Origin: Sulfurimonas sp.
Lineage (GTDB): Bacteria; Campylobacterota; Campylobacteria; Campylobacterales; Sulfurimonadaceae
Assembly: GCA_011391635.1 (NCBI GenBank)
Contig: JAABQD010000002.1
Location: 1 to 64,000, forward strand
DNA: 64,000 nt
Reading direction: 5' to 3'
Under the pieces are notes generated by a model, which did not search any database, had not been told where the DNA came from, and worked only from the letters and a program-made list of their open reading frames with translations. Every line of letters begins with the position of its first letter. The first letter of the stretch is position 1. This document shows positions 30,751 through 62,466 of this stretch, in pieces. The translations under genes were made by a program, and so were the position numbers.

Positions 30751-31583
30751 TTTTCTAACCTTAGTGTAAAACCTCTATCAAAGTCACTTAAATCTTTGTA
30801 GAAGTCCAAATTTTTATACTTTTCATTTTTTAAATAGGCTCTTATTTTATCTTGTTGGTCATAACCTATCTCACATGTAAATAAGTTAATTTTTCGTTTT
30901 AATACCTCATTAAGAAGCTCTCTAATTATCTCATCGCCCACACTTCCGCCAAAGAGTGCATTTTGCGGTTCATAGGAGAGGTTTGATTCCAACTCTGCAT
31001 CATTTGCAATATAAGGCGGGTTTGAAACCAAATAGTCCACATGTTCTGTTATAGGCTCTAAAAGTGAGCCGAGTCTAAGTTCTATCCTCTGTTCAAGCCC
31101 AAATCGAGCGATATTTATCTTTGCAATCGCCAGAGCCTCTATGGAAATATCCACTGCAATAATCTTGGCATGTGGAAACTGTTTTGCCAACATTATGGAG
31201 ATAATTCCACTTCCAACGCCCACCTCTACGATAGTAAACTCTTTTTTGGCATGTGGAATATTTTTTATCACTTCATCGATAAGAAGTTCGGTTTCAGGAC
31301 GAGGAATCAAAGCACCTTGAGCAATATAAAACTCCTCGCTATAAAAACTAACACGATTTGTAATGTACTCCAGAGGTTCATTTTTGGCTCTTCGCTCTAC
31401 CCACTCCAAGAGCTTTTGAATCTCTTGAATTTCGCTATTTTGATTCGTGATAATCCAAAGCTCATCGCATCCCAAATGTGCCATCAAGAGAAGATGTGCT
31501 TCTCTTGATGCCCTCGGGATGAGAGGGTTTAATCTCGCAGTAGTATCTTTTAAAAAATCTTTGACTAAATATTGGCTTGGCAT
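30747..31583 (-). CDS. prmC: Release factor glutamine methyltransferase PrmC (HemK)
   Basis: SAM-dependent enzyme that methylates the Gln of the GGQ motif in release factors. An N-terminal helical domain precedes the methyltransferase fold with VEVGVGSGIISIML (SAM site) and the catalytic VSNPPYI. Length 278 is normal. It overlaps the M48 peptidase gene by 19 bases. Three dispersed-motif cores fall here: 31167 (encoding PHAKI), 31248 (PHAKK) and 31579 at the junction with the peptidase gene. Confidence 0.95.
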   Translation of the reverse strand: MPSQYLVKDFLKDTTARLNPLIPRASREAHLLLMAHLGCDELWIITNQNSEIQEIQKLLEWVERRAKNEPLEYITNRVSFYSEEFYIAQGALIPRPETELLIDEVIKNIPHAKKEFTIVEVGVGSGIISIMLAKQFPHAKIIAVDISIEALAIAKINIARFGLEQRIELRLGSLLEPITEHVDYLVSNPPYIANDAELESNLSYEPQNALFGGSVGDEIIRELLNEVLKRKINLFTCEIGYDQQDKIRAYLKNEKYKNLDFYKDLSDFDRGFTLRLEN

Positions 31584-33594: not shown

Positions 33595-33621
33595 TTCCAC
33601 ATGCCAAAGTGGCATGTGGAA
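33595..33621. terminator. Perfect 12-base inverted pair of the dispersed motif
   Basis: TTCCACATGCCA (33595-33606) and TGGCATGTGGAA (33610-33621) form a perfect stem with loop AAG, between convergent stops at 33587 and 33634. This is the cleanest pair in the window and defines the motif's boundaries. It is likely a bidirectional terminator. Confidence 0.75.
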
Positions 33622-41447: not shown

Positions 41448-44400
41448 TCACAGTCTATTTTTAAAAACTATTTTACAAAGTGAATGACGAATGTTTTTAC
41501 TATTTTGTGAATCATACCAAACAACAACATATTTAAGTGTAACTCCATCGACAACATAACCATTAACAAACTTTTCTTCTAGTTTTTCCTGAAAAGATGC
41601 TGAAAATGTAGATATTATCCTCCCCTTATGAACTATACAATAGTTTTTAAAATTAGGTCGCTTCTCTATCTGCAATTCATCTGAAGCAATAAAATCATTA
41701 TTTTTATAATGTCTATCAACATCAAAGCCAAGACTAATGTCAGACAAACTCATCTCATGTGTAAAAATTTTGTTTTCTAAAAGATAATTTTTCGTATATA
41801 AAAAATATTTTGCATACGGTTTTTTATTTTTTAGCTCATTCCCAACTCTTAAAATATGAAGTTCATTTTTTGCTCTGGTCATGCCAACATAATATAATCT
41901 TTTTTTCTCATCAGATGATGGATTCTCACTCACCAAAAGAAAAACTTTATCAAACTCCATCCCTTTAGATTTATGGATTGTTGACACAATTATACTTTTG
42001 TGATAACTTTGAAAATCTTCTAACTTAATCTCATAGATATAAGATTCCCACTGTGAAATATAATAAGTTTCACTTTCACTCAAAAACTTCTCTATTATTT
42101 TTTCCAAAAGTTTTAAATTTGATGACTTTTTATATCTATCTTGTATGATTTTAAGTGCATCATTAAAATACTTTTCTTTATACGAATTCTCATCTAGTAA
42201 AAAACTATTGAGTACATGACCAAATTCGACAAGTTCTACAATATTTTTTAACTCAAATTTTTCTCTTTCTATAATATATTTAGCTTCAATACCATTTTCT
42301 ATAAGTAGTGAGTATATCTGCATTACCTCATCATTTGTGTATGTAAGTATCGCTATATTTTCATATATTTCTTCTTGTTTTATTAAATCTATTACAGCAG
42401 GAACTAAACTTTGAGCATATGGGTATGAGTGAACTTCAACACTACCGCGTTTTGATGAATTAGCGTAAAGCTTGTGTGTTTTATATCTTTTTTTTATCAT
42501 GCCAGCGAAATCATTGGAGTACTCAACTATATCCGTATTACTCCTAAAATTACATAGCAGTTCATACTGTTTAAAAGACATCTCGTTCTCTTCGTTTTGA
42601 GCGAATTCTTCTCTAAATTTATCTATATATGTAACACTTGCACCTGCATGCTCATTGATGCACTGATCATCATCTCCAACAGCAATAATCTTCAACTCTT
42701 CATTACTAGCTTTATATATAGCTTTTAGAAGTTCAAAACTATTTTCATTTACATCTTGAAACTCATCCAAAACGAGGACGGTGATATGTGGAAGAGCTAT
42801 ATCTCCATCATTTATCTGCTTTGTTGCCTCTTCTATAGCTTTATTTAATATATCCTCATCGCCGTTTTTTGCTACTCGAGCTATCAGCTTTAAAGCAAAA
42901 GAGTGAAATGTTTGAATCTCTATGTCATACGATAATGCACCTATTAGATTATTTAATCTACTTTTAAACTCCCATCTTGCTGTCTTTGAAAATGTAAGCA
43001 TCATAAATTGTTCAGGTTTTATATCTTCAGTCAATATAAGAGAAGCTATCTTATGCACTAAAACTTTTGTTTTTCCACTTCCTGGTCCTGCTAAAATCAT
43101 CATTGCTTTAGTTTTTTTATCTTCTATTATCTCTCTTTGCTCGTCTGACATCTCTTCAAAAAGTTTCTTAAACCTTTTTTTTGTTATAGGTTGAGAAAGT
43201 TGCTCTTTTAAAAGATTATATTGTTTTTTAAATTTGTCATAAGGCAATGTAAAATAATCTTTTAAAAAAAGTATCGCTTTATAGTCATCATTTTGCAATC
43301 TTTTTGCATACTCTCCCATAATATGGATAGATTCTATCTTTGTTTTGTAATGCTCCGCTAATCTATTTTTATATTCAACTAATGTATATTTTTTATTGCC
43401 TGATGCTTTTTCTTCCTTATAAATACTCATAGGGGAATAACTAATAAATCTGCCATTTAAAAGCTCTAAAATATTTAGATGATGAAGATATAACAAAGTT
43501 CTATCTATCTCTTTAATAGATATTTTTTTGTCTAATTTATCGTATAAGTCTTTTAAAGAAAATTCTATTGTCTCTTTTTTTCTAGGTTCAATATTATCTG
43601 TAAAAATAGCTATAAGCTTATTTGCTATTGTGTGCTTGGTCAATATTAATTCTTTAATGTTATTACTATTTTCAAATTTAAAATACCACAAGTTTTGTTC
43701 TCTATTTGTTCTTTTAAACATAAAATTAGATTTATCTTTCCAGTTTTTTATTATTGATTTTATTAACTCAATACTGTTTTTAGTTATAACTTTTTTGCTA
43801 TGAAGATATTCATTCAACTCTCGCATAGATATTTGTGAGTTCATTAGAGAATCCATATAATCAAAGAGCAAGAGTTCTATAGTCTGCACATTTTTAAATT
43901 CATTTACAGCTGTTTTATCTATTTCCAAACTTAAATCTTTACTATTTCCTAAAATATTCATCTCTTTTAGTTGATTAATACTCAGTGAAATATCATGCTT
44001 TTCATATCCAAGTATGTATGCGAGTTCATCTACTTGTATTGATTTTATCTTACCTCTTCCTATAATACTTTGTAAAACTAATGTCAATTTTTGTTTTTCT
44101 TCACTGTTATAACTAGAGTTATTTAAATTTTTGTGAAACTCTTCCATACAATTAGAAGCGATAGAGTCAGCAAAAAAGTTTGTTTTATTCCTCTTTCTGC
44201 TTATATACTTTTCTCTCTCTAACTCAAGCAAAATGGTCTTTACCTTTGTACTATAATCCAAAGAGCTGTCTTCTACATCCCAACCTGCTTCTTTTGCTAA
44301 CTCAAAAGCTGTTTTATTTACTACATTATTTTTTGAATTTTTTATAACTCTTAGTATAGAATTAATCTCACTAGCAGTAAGTTTAGAACGATTTAAAGAG

Positions 44401-46289
44401 ATAAAATGTTTATCTAAATCATTTTCATCAAAAAGTATTGGGCAGTAAGCGTTTAGGTCTTTATTTCTAGCACCTCTTCCCGCTTCTTGTGCATAACTTT
44501 CTAGAGAATCAGATACCTCATAATGTATGACATTCATAATATTTGATTTATCTACCCCCATGCCAAACGCTGTAGTCGCTACTATAATGTCAATCTTGTC
44601 CTCTAAATAATCCTTAAGTATATTCATCTTCTCTCCAGATTCTATCTTAGAGTGAAATGATTTGACATTTTTTTCTGTATCTAGTGATAACTGTTCAGCA
44701 ATTTTATCGCACTCTTTTGTAGATGATGGAATATATATTAATGTTGAACCATCATGTTCATTTAGTATTTGTAATAAATCTTTATATTTATTTTTGCTTT
44801 GAGATTCTATAGATTTATATGTTAAATTTTTTCTCTCTGGAACTGCAAAATACTTATCAAGTTTTATGTCTAAACCATCTAAAAAAAACTTCTCAATATC
44901 ATCTATAACACTAGGTTTAGCTGTTGCTGTAAAACAAGATATAGGAATACTGTCTTGAAAAGGCTTAGCCTCTATAAGTTCCTTGATATATTCACAAATA
45001 TAGTAATAATCTTGTCTAAAATCATTCCCCCAAGTAGATAAGCAGTGTACTTCATCTATAACAAATCTTTCTATTAGTCTATTTTTTAAAATTGCAAAAA
45101 TTGAGTTCGAACGAAGAGATTCAGGAGCAATATATAAAATATCCGCTTCTCCATTTATAACAAGTTCTATAGCTTCACTTCGTTCTAGGGGGCTTAAAAA
45201 TCCACTTATAGCGACTGCTTTATAGTTAGCAACATTAGCATTAAAACTCTTTATATGGTCCTCTATCAGTGCTTGAAGAGGAGAGATAACAACTGTGAGA
45301 GATTTATAAGAAGAAGATTTATAAATTGCTGGTAACCAAAAAGTAAATGTTTTACCTCCACCTGTTGGTAATATGCACAAAAAGGAATCATCTCGTAATG
45401 AAGCTTCTACTATCTCCCTTTGAGAAATAGTAGGACTATCAAGAATACTAGCATTTAATCTAGGAAATTCATTAAATTCATCAAATCCAAATACTTCCTT
45501 TGAAAACTCACTTAAATTATCATTCGCTATATCAATATCAAAGCATAACTTTTTTTGGATATTGACTATATTTGGATAATCAAACAGTACTTTTGGTGGA
45601 TGTGATTTTATCTCAATATGTGGCGTTAATAAAGCAAGTATATATACTAATTCTACAGGATTAGATTCAATTAGTTCTTTTAAATAATCTTTATTTACAA
45701 TTCTCTTTTGATGTGTATCTAAAATCAAATCATATATATTTATTTTTTCTAAAATAGATAGTTTTAAACTCTTTGTTAGATATATGAAAAAACCCTTAAA
45801 ATACAATTCATCCTTGAGTAGTGAATAAAATAAATTTTGAGTATCAGATTCTAAAGACTTAAACTTATCTTCGAGTTTCATAAAAAGTTTCAAAGTAATT
45901 ATAGAATCTTCTACTGGATTATTTTTAAAATCATCTTCACTTTTGTAATTCTTTGGTAAGCTATGGTGAGTTTTTTCATTAAACAATAACAAAGACAAGG
46001 GTAAAGTATCTATAATATTGTACTTTTCAAGATAGTTACTTAATGAAGTATCTTTTAATTTTTCTAAATCAAAATTGATAAAATTATGCCCTGCTATAAA
46101 ATCTGATTTGATAGAAGATATAAAATCTATACTTTGAGAAATAGAAGATGTTCTAAGCTCTCTATCTTTATAAATAAATCCTAACTCATGTATTATATTT
46201 TTAGTTTTACTTACTTCTATATCACAAAATATAATATTTGTATTTTTAGAATAATCACTTAGTAGAATGTCTATCTTCTCTGCATTCAT
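41448..46289 (-). CDS. Giant exonuclease-RecQ-UvrD fusion helicase
   Basis: 1613 residues in one uninterrupted frame. Residues 1-150 are a DEDD-type 3'-5' exonuclease fold (FCDIEVS, FIAGHNFINFDLE, PVEDS). RecQ-like helicase: Walker A PTGGGKT near 310, DEVH near 412, and motif VI region AYAQEAGRGARNKD in variant form (ESYAQEAGRGARNKD). A middle region of about 400 residues is unassigned. UvrD-like helicase: Walker A AGPGSGKT near 1065, DEFQDVNENS, GDDDQCINEH, and STIHKSKGMEFDKVF near 1440, with VGMTRAKNELHI. The C-terminal part is a small folded domain. The start codon overlaps the stop of a decayed nucleotidyltransferase (TAATG). The 4.8-kb gene is AT-rich and has no dispersed motif, which suggests acquisition. 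A role in repair or phage defence is inference. Confidence 0.92.
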   Translation of the reverse strand: MNAEKIDILLSDYSKNTNIIFCDIEVSKTKNIIHELGFIYKDRELRTSSISQSIDFISSIKSDFIAGHNFINFDLEKLKDTSLSNYLEKYNIIDTLPLSLLLFNEKTHHSLPKNYKSEDDFKNNPVEDSIITLKLFMKLEDKFKSLESDTQNLFYSLLKDELYFKGFFIYLTKSLKLSILEKINIYDLILDTHQKRIVNKDYLKELIESNPVELVYILALLTPHIEIKSHPPKVLFDYPNIVNIQKKLCFDIDIANDNLSEFSKEVFGFDEFNEFPRLNASILDSPTISQREIVEASLRDDSFLCILPTGGGKTFTFWLPAIYKSSSYKSLTVVISPLQALIEDHIKSFNANVANYKAVAISGFLSPLERSEAIELVINGEADILYIAPESLRSNSIFAILKNRLIERFVIDEVHCLSTWGNDFRQDYYYICEYIKELIEAKPFQDSIPISCFTATAKPSVIDDIEKFFLDGLDIKLDKYFAVPERKNLTYKSIESQSKNKYKDLLQILNEHDGSTLIYIPSSTKECDKIAEQLSLDTEKNVKSFHSKIESGEKMNILKDYLEDKIDIIVATTAFGMGVDKSNIMNVIHYEVSDSLESYAQEAGRGARNKDLNAYCPILFDENDLDKHFISLNRSKLTASEINSILRVIKNSKNNVVNKTAFELAKEAGWDVEDSSLDYSTKVKTILLELEREKYISRKRNKTNFFADSIASNCMEEFHKNLNNSSYNSEEKQKLTLVLQSIIGRGKIKSIQVDELAYILGYEKHDISLSINQLKEMNILGNSKDLSLEIDKTAVNEFKNVQTIELLLFDYMDSLMNSQISMRELNEYLHSKKVITKNSIELIKSIIKNWKDKSNFMFKRTNREQNLWYFKFENSNNIKELILTKHTIANKLIAIFTDNIEPRKKETIEFSLKDLYDKLDKKISIKEIDRTLLYLHHLNILELLNGRFISYSPMSIYKEEKASGNKKYTLVEYKNRLAEHYKTKIESIHIMGEYAKRLQNDDYKAILFLKDYFTLPYDKFKKQYNLLKEQLSQPITKKRFKKLFEEMSDEQREIIEDKKTKAMMILAGPGSGKTKVLVHKIASLILTEDIKPEQFMMLTFSKTARWEFKSRLNNLIGALSYDIEIQTFHSFALKLIARVAKNGDEDILNKAIEEATKQINDGDIALPHITVLVLDEFQDVNENSFELLKAIYKASNEELKIIAVGDDDQCINEHAGASVTYIDKFREEFAQNEENEMSFKQYELLCNFRSNTDIVEYSNDFAGMIKKRYKTHKLYANSSKRGSVEVHSYPYAQSLVPAVIDLIKQEEIYENIAILTYTNDEVMQIYSLLIENGIEAKYIIEREKFELKNIVELVEFGHVLNSFLLDENSYKEKYFNDALKIIQDRYKKSSNLKLLEKIIEKFLSESETYYISQWESYIYEIKLEDFQSYHKSIIVSTIHKSKGMEFDKVFLLVSENPSSDEKKRLYYVGMTRAKNELHILRVGNELKNKKPYAKYFLYTKNYLLENKIFTHEMSLSDISLGFDVDRHYKNNDFIASDELQIEKRPNFKNYCIVHKGRIISTFSASFQEKLEEKFVNGYVVDGVTLKYVVVWYDSQNSKNIRHSLCKIVFKNRL

Positions 46290-51276: not shown

Positions 51277-54045
<2,769 letters not shown>

Positions 54046-57547: not shown

Positions 57548-58783
57548 CTAAATCTTAGTATCGAGCCAACTTCTTTTTTGGTAGATATACCAGAAAATAA
57601 GACCTTTGATAAGCGTCTCAATGTTCATAATGACAAAAATCGCGATGATTCCAAAACCCATCTGATAGGCCATATACGAGGGAATAACTCTAAAAACCCA
57701 AAGGGAAGCAACATTGACATAGAGTGTGATTTTGGTAGCCCCTGCTCCGCGAAGTGCGGCGGAGTACACAAAAACTATCGCCAAAGGAATCTGAGCCAAA
57801 CCAACTAAAATGAGGTAATACGAAGCGACTTGGATTGTAGCAACATCTTGTGTAAAAAAGCGTACCAAAAACTCAGGAAAAAGAATCAAACAAGCACCGA
57901 CAAAACCCATAAAAACATAGGCAATTCTGCCACTAATAACGCCCATAGCAAAGGCTCTCTCTTTGTCTTTTGCACCCAAACTCTGTCCAACAAGAGCCAT
58001 CGCTGCTATGGCAAACCCAAACCCTGGCATAAAGGCAATGCCCTCGATGCGAAGCCCGACCTGATACCCCGCTAACTCCGCAGTTCCATAATAAGCGATG
58101 ATAGCTACAAAAAGCAAAAATGATAAACTAGAAATCCCTCGCTCTAACGCCGCACTCCATCCCACATGCCAAGCTTTGAGCAAATCTTTGATGCGAATGA
58201 TTGGAAGAATGTTCAGTTTGGCATGTGGATTATTTATGAGAAAAGAGTACACAACGATGCTAAAGAGATAGGACAAAAGCGTCGCATACGCCGCACCTTC
58301 GATACCATGTGCCTGAAATCCGAAATGCCCAAAAATGAGAACATAGTTAAAAAATGCGTTGAGAGCGGCTGCAAAAAGTTTGATGTAGAGTGAACTTTTT
58401 GTATCTCCCGCGGCAGAGAGTGCGTTGTACATGAGCGTATCTAAAAAAATGAGAGGCATTCCACATGCCAAGATACTAAAGTAAAGTCCGCCCTGATGCA
58501 CGACTTCAGGCTCTGCACCCATTATTTCATAGATAAATTCACTTCCAAAATATCCGCCAACAGCTACAAAAACAGATAAAAAGAGAGCAAAAATTCCAAG
58601 CGAATAGAGCAAAGCCGAAGCCCTTTTTTTGCGACCTTGTCCGATATAACGGGAGATGAGTGCATTGCCACCGACGACATAAAGCGTCATAAGGACATTC
58701 ACAACCATCATAAACTGCATACTCATACCAACCGCGGCAAGGGCGTAAACGCTCACAAATCCCACCATTATCATATCAATCAT
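57548..58783 (-). CDS. MATE-family multidrug efflux transporter
   Basis: 411 residues from the first ATG, with 11-12 helices and MATE features (DMIMVGFVSVYALAAVGMS; NALISRYIGQGRKKRA; GIEGAAYATLLSYLF). The ATG lies inside the first helix: the frame stays open for 27 more codons to 58864 and encodes TKHVFRLAIPAALKHLVDIL, the typical MATE N-terminus, without any ATG, GTG or TTG. The real start is therefore probably ATA 58864 or ATC 58861, overlapping the upstream stop. Dispersed-motif cores are at 58162 and 58220 (inverted) and 58461. Confidence 0.9.
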   Translation of the reverse strand: MIDMIMVGFVSVYALAAVGMSMQFMMVVNVLMTLYVVGGNALISRYIGQGRKKRASALLYSLGIFALFLSVFVAVGGYFGSEFIYEIMGAEPEVVHQGGLYFSILACGMPLIFLDTLMYNALSAAGDTKSSLYIKLFAAALNAFFNYVLIFGHFGFQAHGIEGAAYATLLSYLFSIVVYSFLINNPHAKLNILPIIRIKDLLKAWHVGWSAALERGISSLSFLLFVAIIAYYGTAELAGYQVGLRIEGIAFMPGFGFAIAAMALVGQSLGAKDKERAFAMGVISGRIAYVFMGFVGACLILFPEFLVRFFTQDVATIQVASYYLILVGLAQIPLAIVFVYSAALRGAGATKITLYVNVASLWVFRVIPSYMAYQMGFGIIAIFVIMNIETLIKGLIFWYIYQKRSWLDTKI

Positions 58784-59158: not shown

Positions 59159-62100
59159 TCATCGCAACAACTCCAACAGCTCATCAGAACTAAATTTCAT
59201 CTCTTCTTGCTGTTTGTTGTTGTCATAGATTCCATCTTGAAGCGACTGTTTTTTGTGTTGCAACTCCAAAATTTTCTGCTCGATACTATTTGCAACAATG
59301 AGTTTATAGACAAAAACTGCTTTGGTTTGCCCTATGCGGTAGGCTCTATCTGTGGCTTGATTTTCAACTGCTGGATTCCACCATGGGTCGTAGTGGATGA
59401 CGGTGTCGGCTTCTACGAGATTAAGCCCTACTCCACCCGCTTTGAGAGAGATGAGAAAAAGCTGGGCATCGCCTTTTGTGAACTTCTCTATCGCTTCTGG
59501 GCGATTTTTTGTAGAGCCTGTGAGTTTCGTATATTTTACTCCCATCTCTATGATTTTTTCTTCTATAATTGCCAACATAGAGGTAAATTGTGAAAAGACA
59601 AGTATCTTTCTTCCCTCTTGCAAAAGCTCATCCACAAGGTCTAAAAAAAGCTCAAGTTTTGCAGACTCTTTTACTTTTTTGGCTTCATCAATTTTGAGAA
59701 GTGAAGGGTCACAGCAAACTTGACGAAGCTTGAGAAGTGCGTCTAGTATGGTGATGTGTGAAGAACCTAGCCCTTTTTTACTCACCGCTTCTCGCACTTT
59801 TTTCTCCATCATGACACGAATCGATTCGTAGAGTTTGGATTGTTTCTCATCAAACTCTGTGTATTTGATAATCTCCGATTTTTGCGGAAGTTCGTGGGCT
59901 ACTTTCTCTTTTGTGCGTCGTACCATAAAGGGTTTGATTCTCTTGTTGAGAAGCTCTTGTCTGGCAAAATCATGCTCTTTTTCTATGGGTGTTTGGTAAT
60001 AATTTCTAAAAAAGTTCAAACTGTCCAAAAACCCCGGCATCAAAAAGCTGAAAATCGACCAAAGTTCCCCCAAATGGTTTTCAATTGGCGTTCCACTCAG
60101 AGCCAATCGATGTTCGGATTTGAGAGTTTTTATAGCCACTGTCATTTTTGCAGTCGCATTTTTTATCTTCTGTGCTTCATCCAAAATGAGATAAAAAAAG
60201 CTCTGAGCATCGAGTTTCTCTTTGTCTCGGATGATGAGCGGATAGGTTGTCAAAATCAAATCATAATTTGCTATTTCACTAAATCTCTCTGCTCTCTCAC
60301 TCCCATGAAGAGAGAGAACGCTCAAGTTTGGAGTGAACTTCTTAACCTCATTTTTCCAGTTGGCGATAAGTGAAGTTGGCATGATGATAAGCGAAGGTTT
60401 TATAAGTTTGCCATCCTCTTTTAAACGTGAGAGATGCACCAAAGTCTGTATGGTCTTTCCAAGTCCCATATCATCCGCCAATATTCCGCCAAACTTAAAC
60501 TCATACAAAAAGTTGAGCCAGTTTACGCCCTCTTGCTGATAATCTCTTAGGGTTGCTGTGAAGAATTTTGGTGGTACAACTACTTCCATGCCCTCAAAAT
60601 TTTTAAGTTTTTTGGAGAGTTCCAAGATTTCACGGCTTCCCTTCCAGATAACAGTTTCATCTAAATTATCTATAAGATGGGCATCGAACGCAGAAATTTT
60701 GAGACTATCATCTTTCTCTTTTTTATCCAAAAGCTCAAAAATTGTTTTGAGAATTGGAGCTATCTGTTTGGTTTGCAGAGTTACAAAACTATTTTGCGAA
60801 ATTTCTATATTGATAAGCTCTGGTAGGTTTTCATAGTCGTCAAACTCCGCAATTATGCCACTCACAAGAGGTACAAGCGAGAGTGAAACTCCGTTGAACT
60901 CAAGATTGAATGCGAGGTTAAACCAATCATTTGTGTTCTCACTCTCCACCACAATGTTGGCATGTTGCTCAAATTTCATCTCAAAACTCGCATCTACTTC
61001 CACATGCCAACCTTCACTCTCCAAACTTGGCATGTGGAACTCTAAAAACTCACTCCATGTTTGGAGTTGTTCTTGTCTGGTTTTGTAGTTTGAAGGAAGC
61101 ATAAAAAGTGCCGTAGCATCTGAATTTGCAACAAATCCAAACTCCTCTAACCTCTGTTTTACACTCTCTTCAAATTGCAAATCTCTAAGAATTTCCGTCT
61201 TAATTTTCTCTTGTAAAAACGATGTTTTTTGCTCTTGGGGATAATAATTTTGTTTGTGATTTTCATACAAAAAACTCACTTCCATACTATGAAATATACT
61301 CATTTGCTCTTTGGGAAGAAAAAGTTTTATATATGCTGTTGGCTGCGTTTGAATCGTTTTTGTTTGGATACCTTTTGGTGTTTGAAGCTCTATATTTGGA
61401 GCTATTTTTTGGATTGTTTCATACACTTGGATAAGCTGTTCTTCACTGATTTGAGGAGCATTTTTCAGCTCTTTTAACACTTTTGGCTCTATACTCATCT
61501 CATAAACGACAGAGTTTATTGTGTCAATAATCAAAGGCGGTGTGGTGTAAAGAAGTTGATACTCTTTTGTGATGTTGGACTCTATACTATATTTATCTTT
61601 TATTTTTTTCCAGCTAAATTTTGGATGATAGACAGTTGGACTCAGATGAAGTGGCACTTCATTTGCACCGCAATAGCATCGATTGGTTTTGAGAAGTTCC
61701 AAAAGTGCCATATAACCCAATCTCTCTCTAAAAAAACCGTTTGTGCCTCGAAAATTTGAACGCAAACCCTCAAGCAACATGGCAATAGTGTCATCTTCAC
61801 TCTTCTTGATATCACTGTAACCATAATTGGTAAAAAACTTGTACTCATCGAGTTTCGTACCTTGAGAGAGCTTTTTATTTTTTAAGATTTTTGATTTAAA
61901 AATCGAAAACTCTACTGTGCCATAGCGAGAAACCTTATCAAAAAGTCGGTAGGTTATAAAATACTCATTTGCATTTACAGACTTTGGTTTGGCACTCTCT
62001 TGGAGAGTATAGAGCCACTTGCTCAGTTGCGTATCTGAGCTTGATTGCATTGAGATAGCGGATGGGACTCTATTTTTTATTACATACGCCAAACAAGCAG

Positions 62101-62419: not shown

Positions 62420-62466
62420 TTGGCATGTGGAATTATTGGCATGTGGAAATAGTTTGGCATGTGGAG
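62420..62466. repeat. Three direct copies of the dispersed motif
   Basis: TTGGCATGTGGAA at 62420-62432 and 62436-62448 and TTGGCATGTGGAG at 62454-62466, in the same orientation, 16 and 18 bases apart. They fill much of the gap between cytochrome c peroxidase and the SNF2 gene. Direct orientation rules out a simple hairpin. Confidence 0.85.

Follow-up and report, generated by a model that had tools for sequence, protein, structure and literature searches.

Why should a helicase gene of Sulfurimonas carry the same 13-base word, TTCCACATGCCAA, twice and in opposite orientations within its coding sequence? The gene lies in the 64-kb stretch of DNA analysed here (the window) and encodes a protein with SNF2, Helicase_C and SWIM domains. 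An earlier note on this DNA had described an inverted pair of 13-base words read in frame as FHMP and WHVE, and had taken it as a word fixed despite its coding cost, through uptake rather than transcription control. The description was accurate in its coordinates, spacing and arms (Table 1): the spacer is 16 bases long, the arms are complementary at 13 of 13 positions, and both words are in frame, FHMP occupying residues 442–445 and WHVE residues 452–455.

How much does the pair cost the protein? In another word-rich species (L004), the SNF2 homologue is 68% identical and carries the same two words at the same codons. Homologues from word-free genomes lack both words and lack FHMP, having other residues there. 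In these word-free homologues, residues 442–445 are among the freer columns (pairwise identity 0.08–0.35), three residues of WHVE (W, V and E) are largely tolerated in any case, and the segment containing the words is of average variability for the N-terminal part. The orthologues align across the site by substitution, with no insertion. One word is found in the homologue of L006 and near-misses of both in that of L005, the peptide being retained where the word is lost in L005 and partly in L006; because both genomes are members of the word-bearing clade with decaying copies, this retention does not refute the earlier reading. The pair represents ordinary word copies at a cheap protein site, with a small cost to the protein. 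Two further homologues, 64% and 49% identical (L009 and L015), are on AT-rich contigs (35–41% GC) labelled Lysobacterales, which are perhaps misbinned.

The word is found throughout the genome. Its core, CCACATGCC, has 1393 copies (697 on the plus and 696 on the minus strand), against 3 for the reversed control. Alignment of the copies yields a sharp T-CCACATGCC-A, flanked more weakly by T and A; beyond about 13 bases the sequence is random. The word is asymmetric and not palindromic, about 10–13 bases long, and its near-misses concentrate at its ends. Most copies are single and the majority lie within genes; both copy number and spacing are highly variable. A simple ORF rule was used to call the genes in 344 kb of this genome; 59 of the 223 copies there were intergenic (2.36 per kb, against 0.51 per kb in genes), and four word-rich genomes pooled showed a 3.9-fold intergenic enrichment. 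In the same 344 kb, 87 copies were oriented with the gene and 77 against it; all frames were used, with a preference, since 59 of the 87 co-oriented copies shared one frame. Placement favours permissive places, in genes and between them, in both orientations. The idea of fixation despite coding cost therefore holds in part: fixation within genes is real and involves mixed frames and either strand, but the cost in SNF2 is low. Coding cost is avoided rather than overridden, since the density of words per kb is about fourfold lower in genes than between them and one frame is preferred.

Pairs within 60 bases are also more frequent than expected. Within genes of the 344 kb there were 11 (4.9 expected, 95% range 1–10), including 6 convergent pairs against 1.2 expected; between genes there were 18 (7.1 expected), 10 of them convergent. 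An inverted intragenic pair of the SNF2 type is, as such, only mildly special. As a separate observation, a 63-base in-frame direct repeat with one word copy per unit occurs at G000:C1 239285–239411 (L055). GATC is strongly depleted in G000 (L044–L057), where 280 kb contain 342 sites and about 2089 would be expected, as in most sampled Sulfurimonas; it is not depleted in G031 (390 against 437 expected).

The window itself contains 42 copies of the core, and TTCCACATGCCAA with up to 3 mismatches occurs 73 times, compared with 22 ± 4.5 in shuffled sequences. The copies listed in Table 1 include a second intragenic pair, in the MATE gene, which the earlier note had also named; its 9-base cores at 58162 and 58220 are exact, but both copies are one mismatch away from the 13-mer. 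We considered whether word-free stretches might mark foreign islands and rejected this, because the 5–6-kb gaps of the window also hold the housekeeping genes ftsA and ftsZ; in this window, lack of the word does not cleanly mark DNA as foreign. One GC-poor (0.30), word-free stretch of 6 kb, between gatB and atpB, holds a gene at 41448–46289 on the minus strand whose 1613-aa product joins DEAD/Helicase_C to UvrD helicase domains and which is possibly acquired or defence-related.

Table 1. Word copies and the genes that carry them in the 64-kb window
Feature	Position	Strand	Remark
SNF2-family helicase gene with SWIM domain, 1067 aa	59159..62362	-	
Word TTCCACATGCCAA in SNF2 gene	60998..61010	+	coding strand reads WHVE
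Word TTCCACATGCCAA in SNF2 gene	61027..61039	-	coding strand reads FHMP
Three tandem word copies upstream of SNF2 gene	62420..62466	-	
MATE transporter gene	57548..58783	-	
Word copy in MATE gene, TCCCACATGCCAA	58160..58172	+	exact 9-base core
Word copy in MATE gene, ATCCACATGCCAA	58218..58230	-	exact 9-base core
ligA, NAD-dependent DNA ligase	51980..53947	-	
Word copy in ligA, codon 252	53183..53195	-	same codons form TACATGTA in six related genomes
Word copy in ligA, codon 400	52739..52751	-	
Two direct word copies upstream of ligA	53942..54020	+	at 53942 and 54008
Two direct word copies within one gene	31165..31258	-	at 31165 and 31246
Intergenic convergent word pair, almost touching	33595..33621		hairpin, terminator-like arrangement

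Among 135 Sulfurimonas species, 11, including the source genome, are word-rich (411–1427 copies), a handful have intermediate counts (50–226) and the others are near chance. Sampled genomes from other families of the same order have 0–18 copies, nearly all of them fewer than 9. When viral contigs were scanned for the word as a 14-mer, the matches listed were single and scattered.

Are the copies maintained? At 72–82% DNA identity, orthologous copies were intact in word-rich genomes at 15/18, 22/38, 13/23, 6/8 and 5/8 sites (61/95 in total), compared with 6–24% for control random 10-mers, and the copies were mostly either letter-perfect or wholly different. In a sister trio, G172, G138 and G166, in which DNA identity was as high, only 1/29, 1/15 and 2/10 copies were intact (4/54); the decay in G138 and G166 is read from these small samples together with genome-wide counts. 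G172 has a clear excess of one- and two-mismatch forms of the word. Genome-wide, near-misses per exact copy (one-mismatch counts minus a background of about 30 per Mb) amount to approximately 1.6–1.8 in the trio, compared with 0.13–0.26 in word-rich genomes. In a LigA and DprA protein tree, the three form a clade (support 100/98) beside G000 and G137, and the maintaining force has most simply been lost once in the trio; it has probably also been lost in G041 (90 copies), which adjoins G111 with 786. A new dialect replacing the word in the decaying G172 and G138 was sought and rejected, as no other enriched uptake-like word was found. In 386 kb of G172 (L071–L073, L154–L168), a repeat around ACAACCCCCTAAAGC occurs about 17 times.

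A second word occurs in the genus. The palindromic TACATGTA (extended, YTACATGTAR; hereafter word B, CCACATGCC being word A) has 200–850 copies in some 20 species of the genus; these comprise G055, G032, G108, G011, G101, G110, G099 and others (L082–L101, L175–L190), S. autotrophica with 611 copies being one of them. It is mostly intragenic, with an intergenic enrichment of just 1.5-fold. Word B is at background where word A is abundant, and relatives poor in word A often carry word B; the distribution of these forms is patchy on the LigA and DprA tree. Both words contain ACATG. At ligA codon 252, 12 genomes read (T/G)CC ACA TGC CA(A/G), which is word A, and 6 read (T/G)CT ACA TGT AAA, which is word B; the remaining genomes have neither. 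Comparison of all genome pairs gave 400 aligned word-A sites, and at 50 of them word B stands exactly in register; among 915 control ACATG positions it does so at 17. Where ACATG is kept, the figures are 50 of 103 and 17 of 240; the 50 cases rest on about 8 distinct sites, so that these counts are not independent. The letters may have been substituted in place, or the two words may each settle at one set of permissive sites; either account fits a single recognition system whose core, ACATG, is common to both words. Further dialects are apparent in G036 (CCACATGCT/C; L185/L077–L079) and in G035 (ACATGCCAAGG; L238, L213, L039), and G171 has near-misses of word A plus a rising count of word B.

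What maintains such a word? We consider it probable that TTCCACATGCCAA, with its core CCACATGCC, is a genome-wide, non-mobile, asymmetric DNA uptake sequence, and the best reading of the whole is a putative uptake-sequence system with dialects, in a phylum with no known case. In this reading the competence machinery would have a receptor at the cell surface, probably a minor type IV pilin, to which free DNA binds through the word, and DNA of the same lineage would be taken up preferentially. Word-bearing alleles would then replace word-less ones by recombination, and this replacement would build up and repair words wherever coding permits. We infer uptake bias as the maintaining force, a pilin as the receptor and the two words as dialects of one system. 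The earlier preference for uptake over transcription control is favoured on other grounds than those first given, namely the letter-perfect maintenance at orthologous sites, the decay in one clade and the dialects.

Known uptake words show the same habits (PMC3630211; PMC12616744), and sequence-marked DNA uptake has been reported from just two proteobacterial families, Neisseriaceae and Pasteurellaceae (PMC12616744). These shared habits favour an independent uptake-word system in Sulfurimonas. Like the DUS of Neisseriaceae, whose receptor is ComP (PMC3630211; PMC12616744), the word is contiguous, of about 10–13 bases, and present in many hundred copies on both strands; the copies occupy permissive places inside genes as well as between them, inverted pairs occur, and there are putative dialects with an inner core in common. 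In contrast to the DUS, it is unrelated in sequence (ACATG core) and belongs to another phylum, one dialect of its relatives is palindromic, the dialects are patchy on the LigA and DprA tree, and its receptor and uptake preference are predicted ones. The USS of Pasteurellaceae, with the proposed receptor ComN/PpdA (PMC12616744), is likewise found genome-wide with a 9-base core, and its two dialects share an inner core, as those proposed here would, but no AT-rich helical-repeat flanks were seen downstream of the Sulfurimonas word. A literature search for uptake words in Sulfurimonas or Campylobacterota, or for TACATGTA, found nothing relevant.

The strongest rival is an element like HIP1 of cyanobacteria, linked to methylation: a DNA methyltransferase together with biased repair, rather than uptake, would create the words and preserve them, and a change of methyltransferase would change the word. 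HIP1 is highly iterated and is replaced by alternate HIPs in some cyanobacterial lineages (PMC4390886), much as the Sulfurimonas words replace one another between lineages; near-misses concentrated at the ends, as in word A, have been reported for HIP1 too, and the word B of relatives is palindromic and mostly genic. Word A, however, is asymmetric, longer, fourfold denser between genes and paired. This explanation fits word B better than word A, and for the word of the window we regard it as unlikely. It is conceivable, if doubtful, that both words are interchangeable dialects of an independently evolved self-DNA tag, with a single receptor for the two and replacement of one by the other at identical chromosomal sites. 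Uptake sequences and HIP1-like palindromes would in that case be aspects of the same phenomenon.

A chromosome-organising or DNA-repair protein might instead bind the word as a nucleoid, segregation or Chi-like site under selection at each position; such a site would also be conserved letter by letter among orthologues and would be lost clade-wide with its protein. We consider this quite improbable, because strand bias of the Chi or KOPS type is absent by contig (697:696) and by gene (87:77), copy number and spacing vary widely, and presence in only about 11–20 of 135 congeners would be odd for a housekeeping site. That the word spread because inverted pairs terminate transcription is more improbable still: convergent pairs are enriched between genes, yet most copies are single, most lie in genes, and conservation at orthologous sites extends to single copies. 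An origin as a mobile repeat (REP/MITE) or as a protein motif has only the in-frame position in SNF2 in its favour; it is almost certainly wrong and was rejected, given the use of all frames and both strands, the random flanks beyond about 13 bases, the alignment of orthologues through the site by substitution and the word-free SNF2 homologues without the peptide.

If the word is an uptake sequence, are the genes for uptake present? comEC was found in 78 of 79 good genomes, dprA in 23 of 24 genomes searched, and type IV pilin genes are present, the comEC locus lying near pilins; comEC is also found in many word-free species. The one genome with no comEC match is the decaying G172, in which comEC and the linked pilins are missing together from the assembly, possibly through a single assembly gap. 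In G138, comEC is interrupted by an 8.1-kb insert of low GC content (29%; L184:1262–9354), the genes of which include a radical-SAM-like one and several small ones, one of them prepilin-like. The low-copy genomes G166 and G041 have full comEC ORFs and also dprA ORFs, and because they retain comEC, loss of the word does not map cleanly on loss of this gene. Loss of dprA was rejected as a cause of the decay, the gene being intact in G172, G138 and G166. A link between word decay and loss of competence is suggestive. Comparison of pilins for a candidate receptor singled out none: pilins linked to priA or comEC occur in nearly all species examined, and pilin similarity tracks phylogeny more than dialect. 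Separately, we noted dnaB ORFs of about 826–837 aa in L183, L185, L187, L188 and L177, which give two split matches to the 483-aa form, the pattern that an intein would produce.

A third, independent case of sequence-marked uptake, in abundant sulfur oxidisers, would, if true, show how uptake-word systems arise. Within this single genus, words seem to have been gained, to have changed dialect and to have decayed, and because one of the dialects has cultured carriers (S. autotrophica), the molecular-drive explanation of uptake words should become testable.
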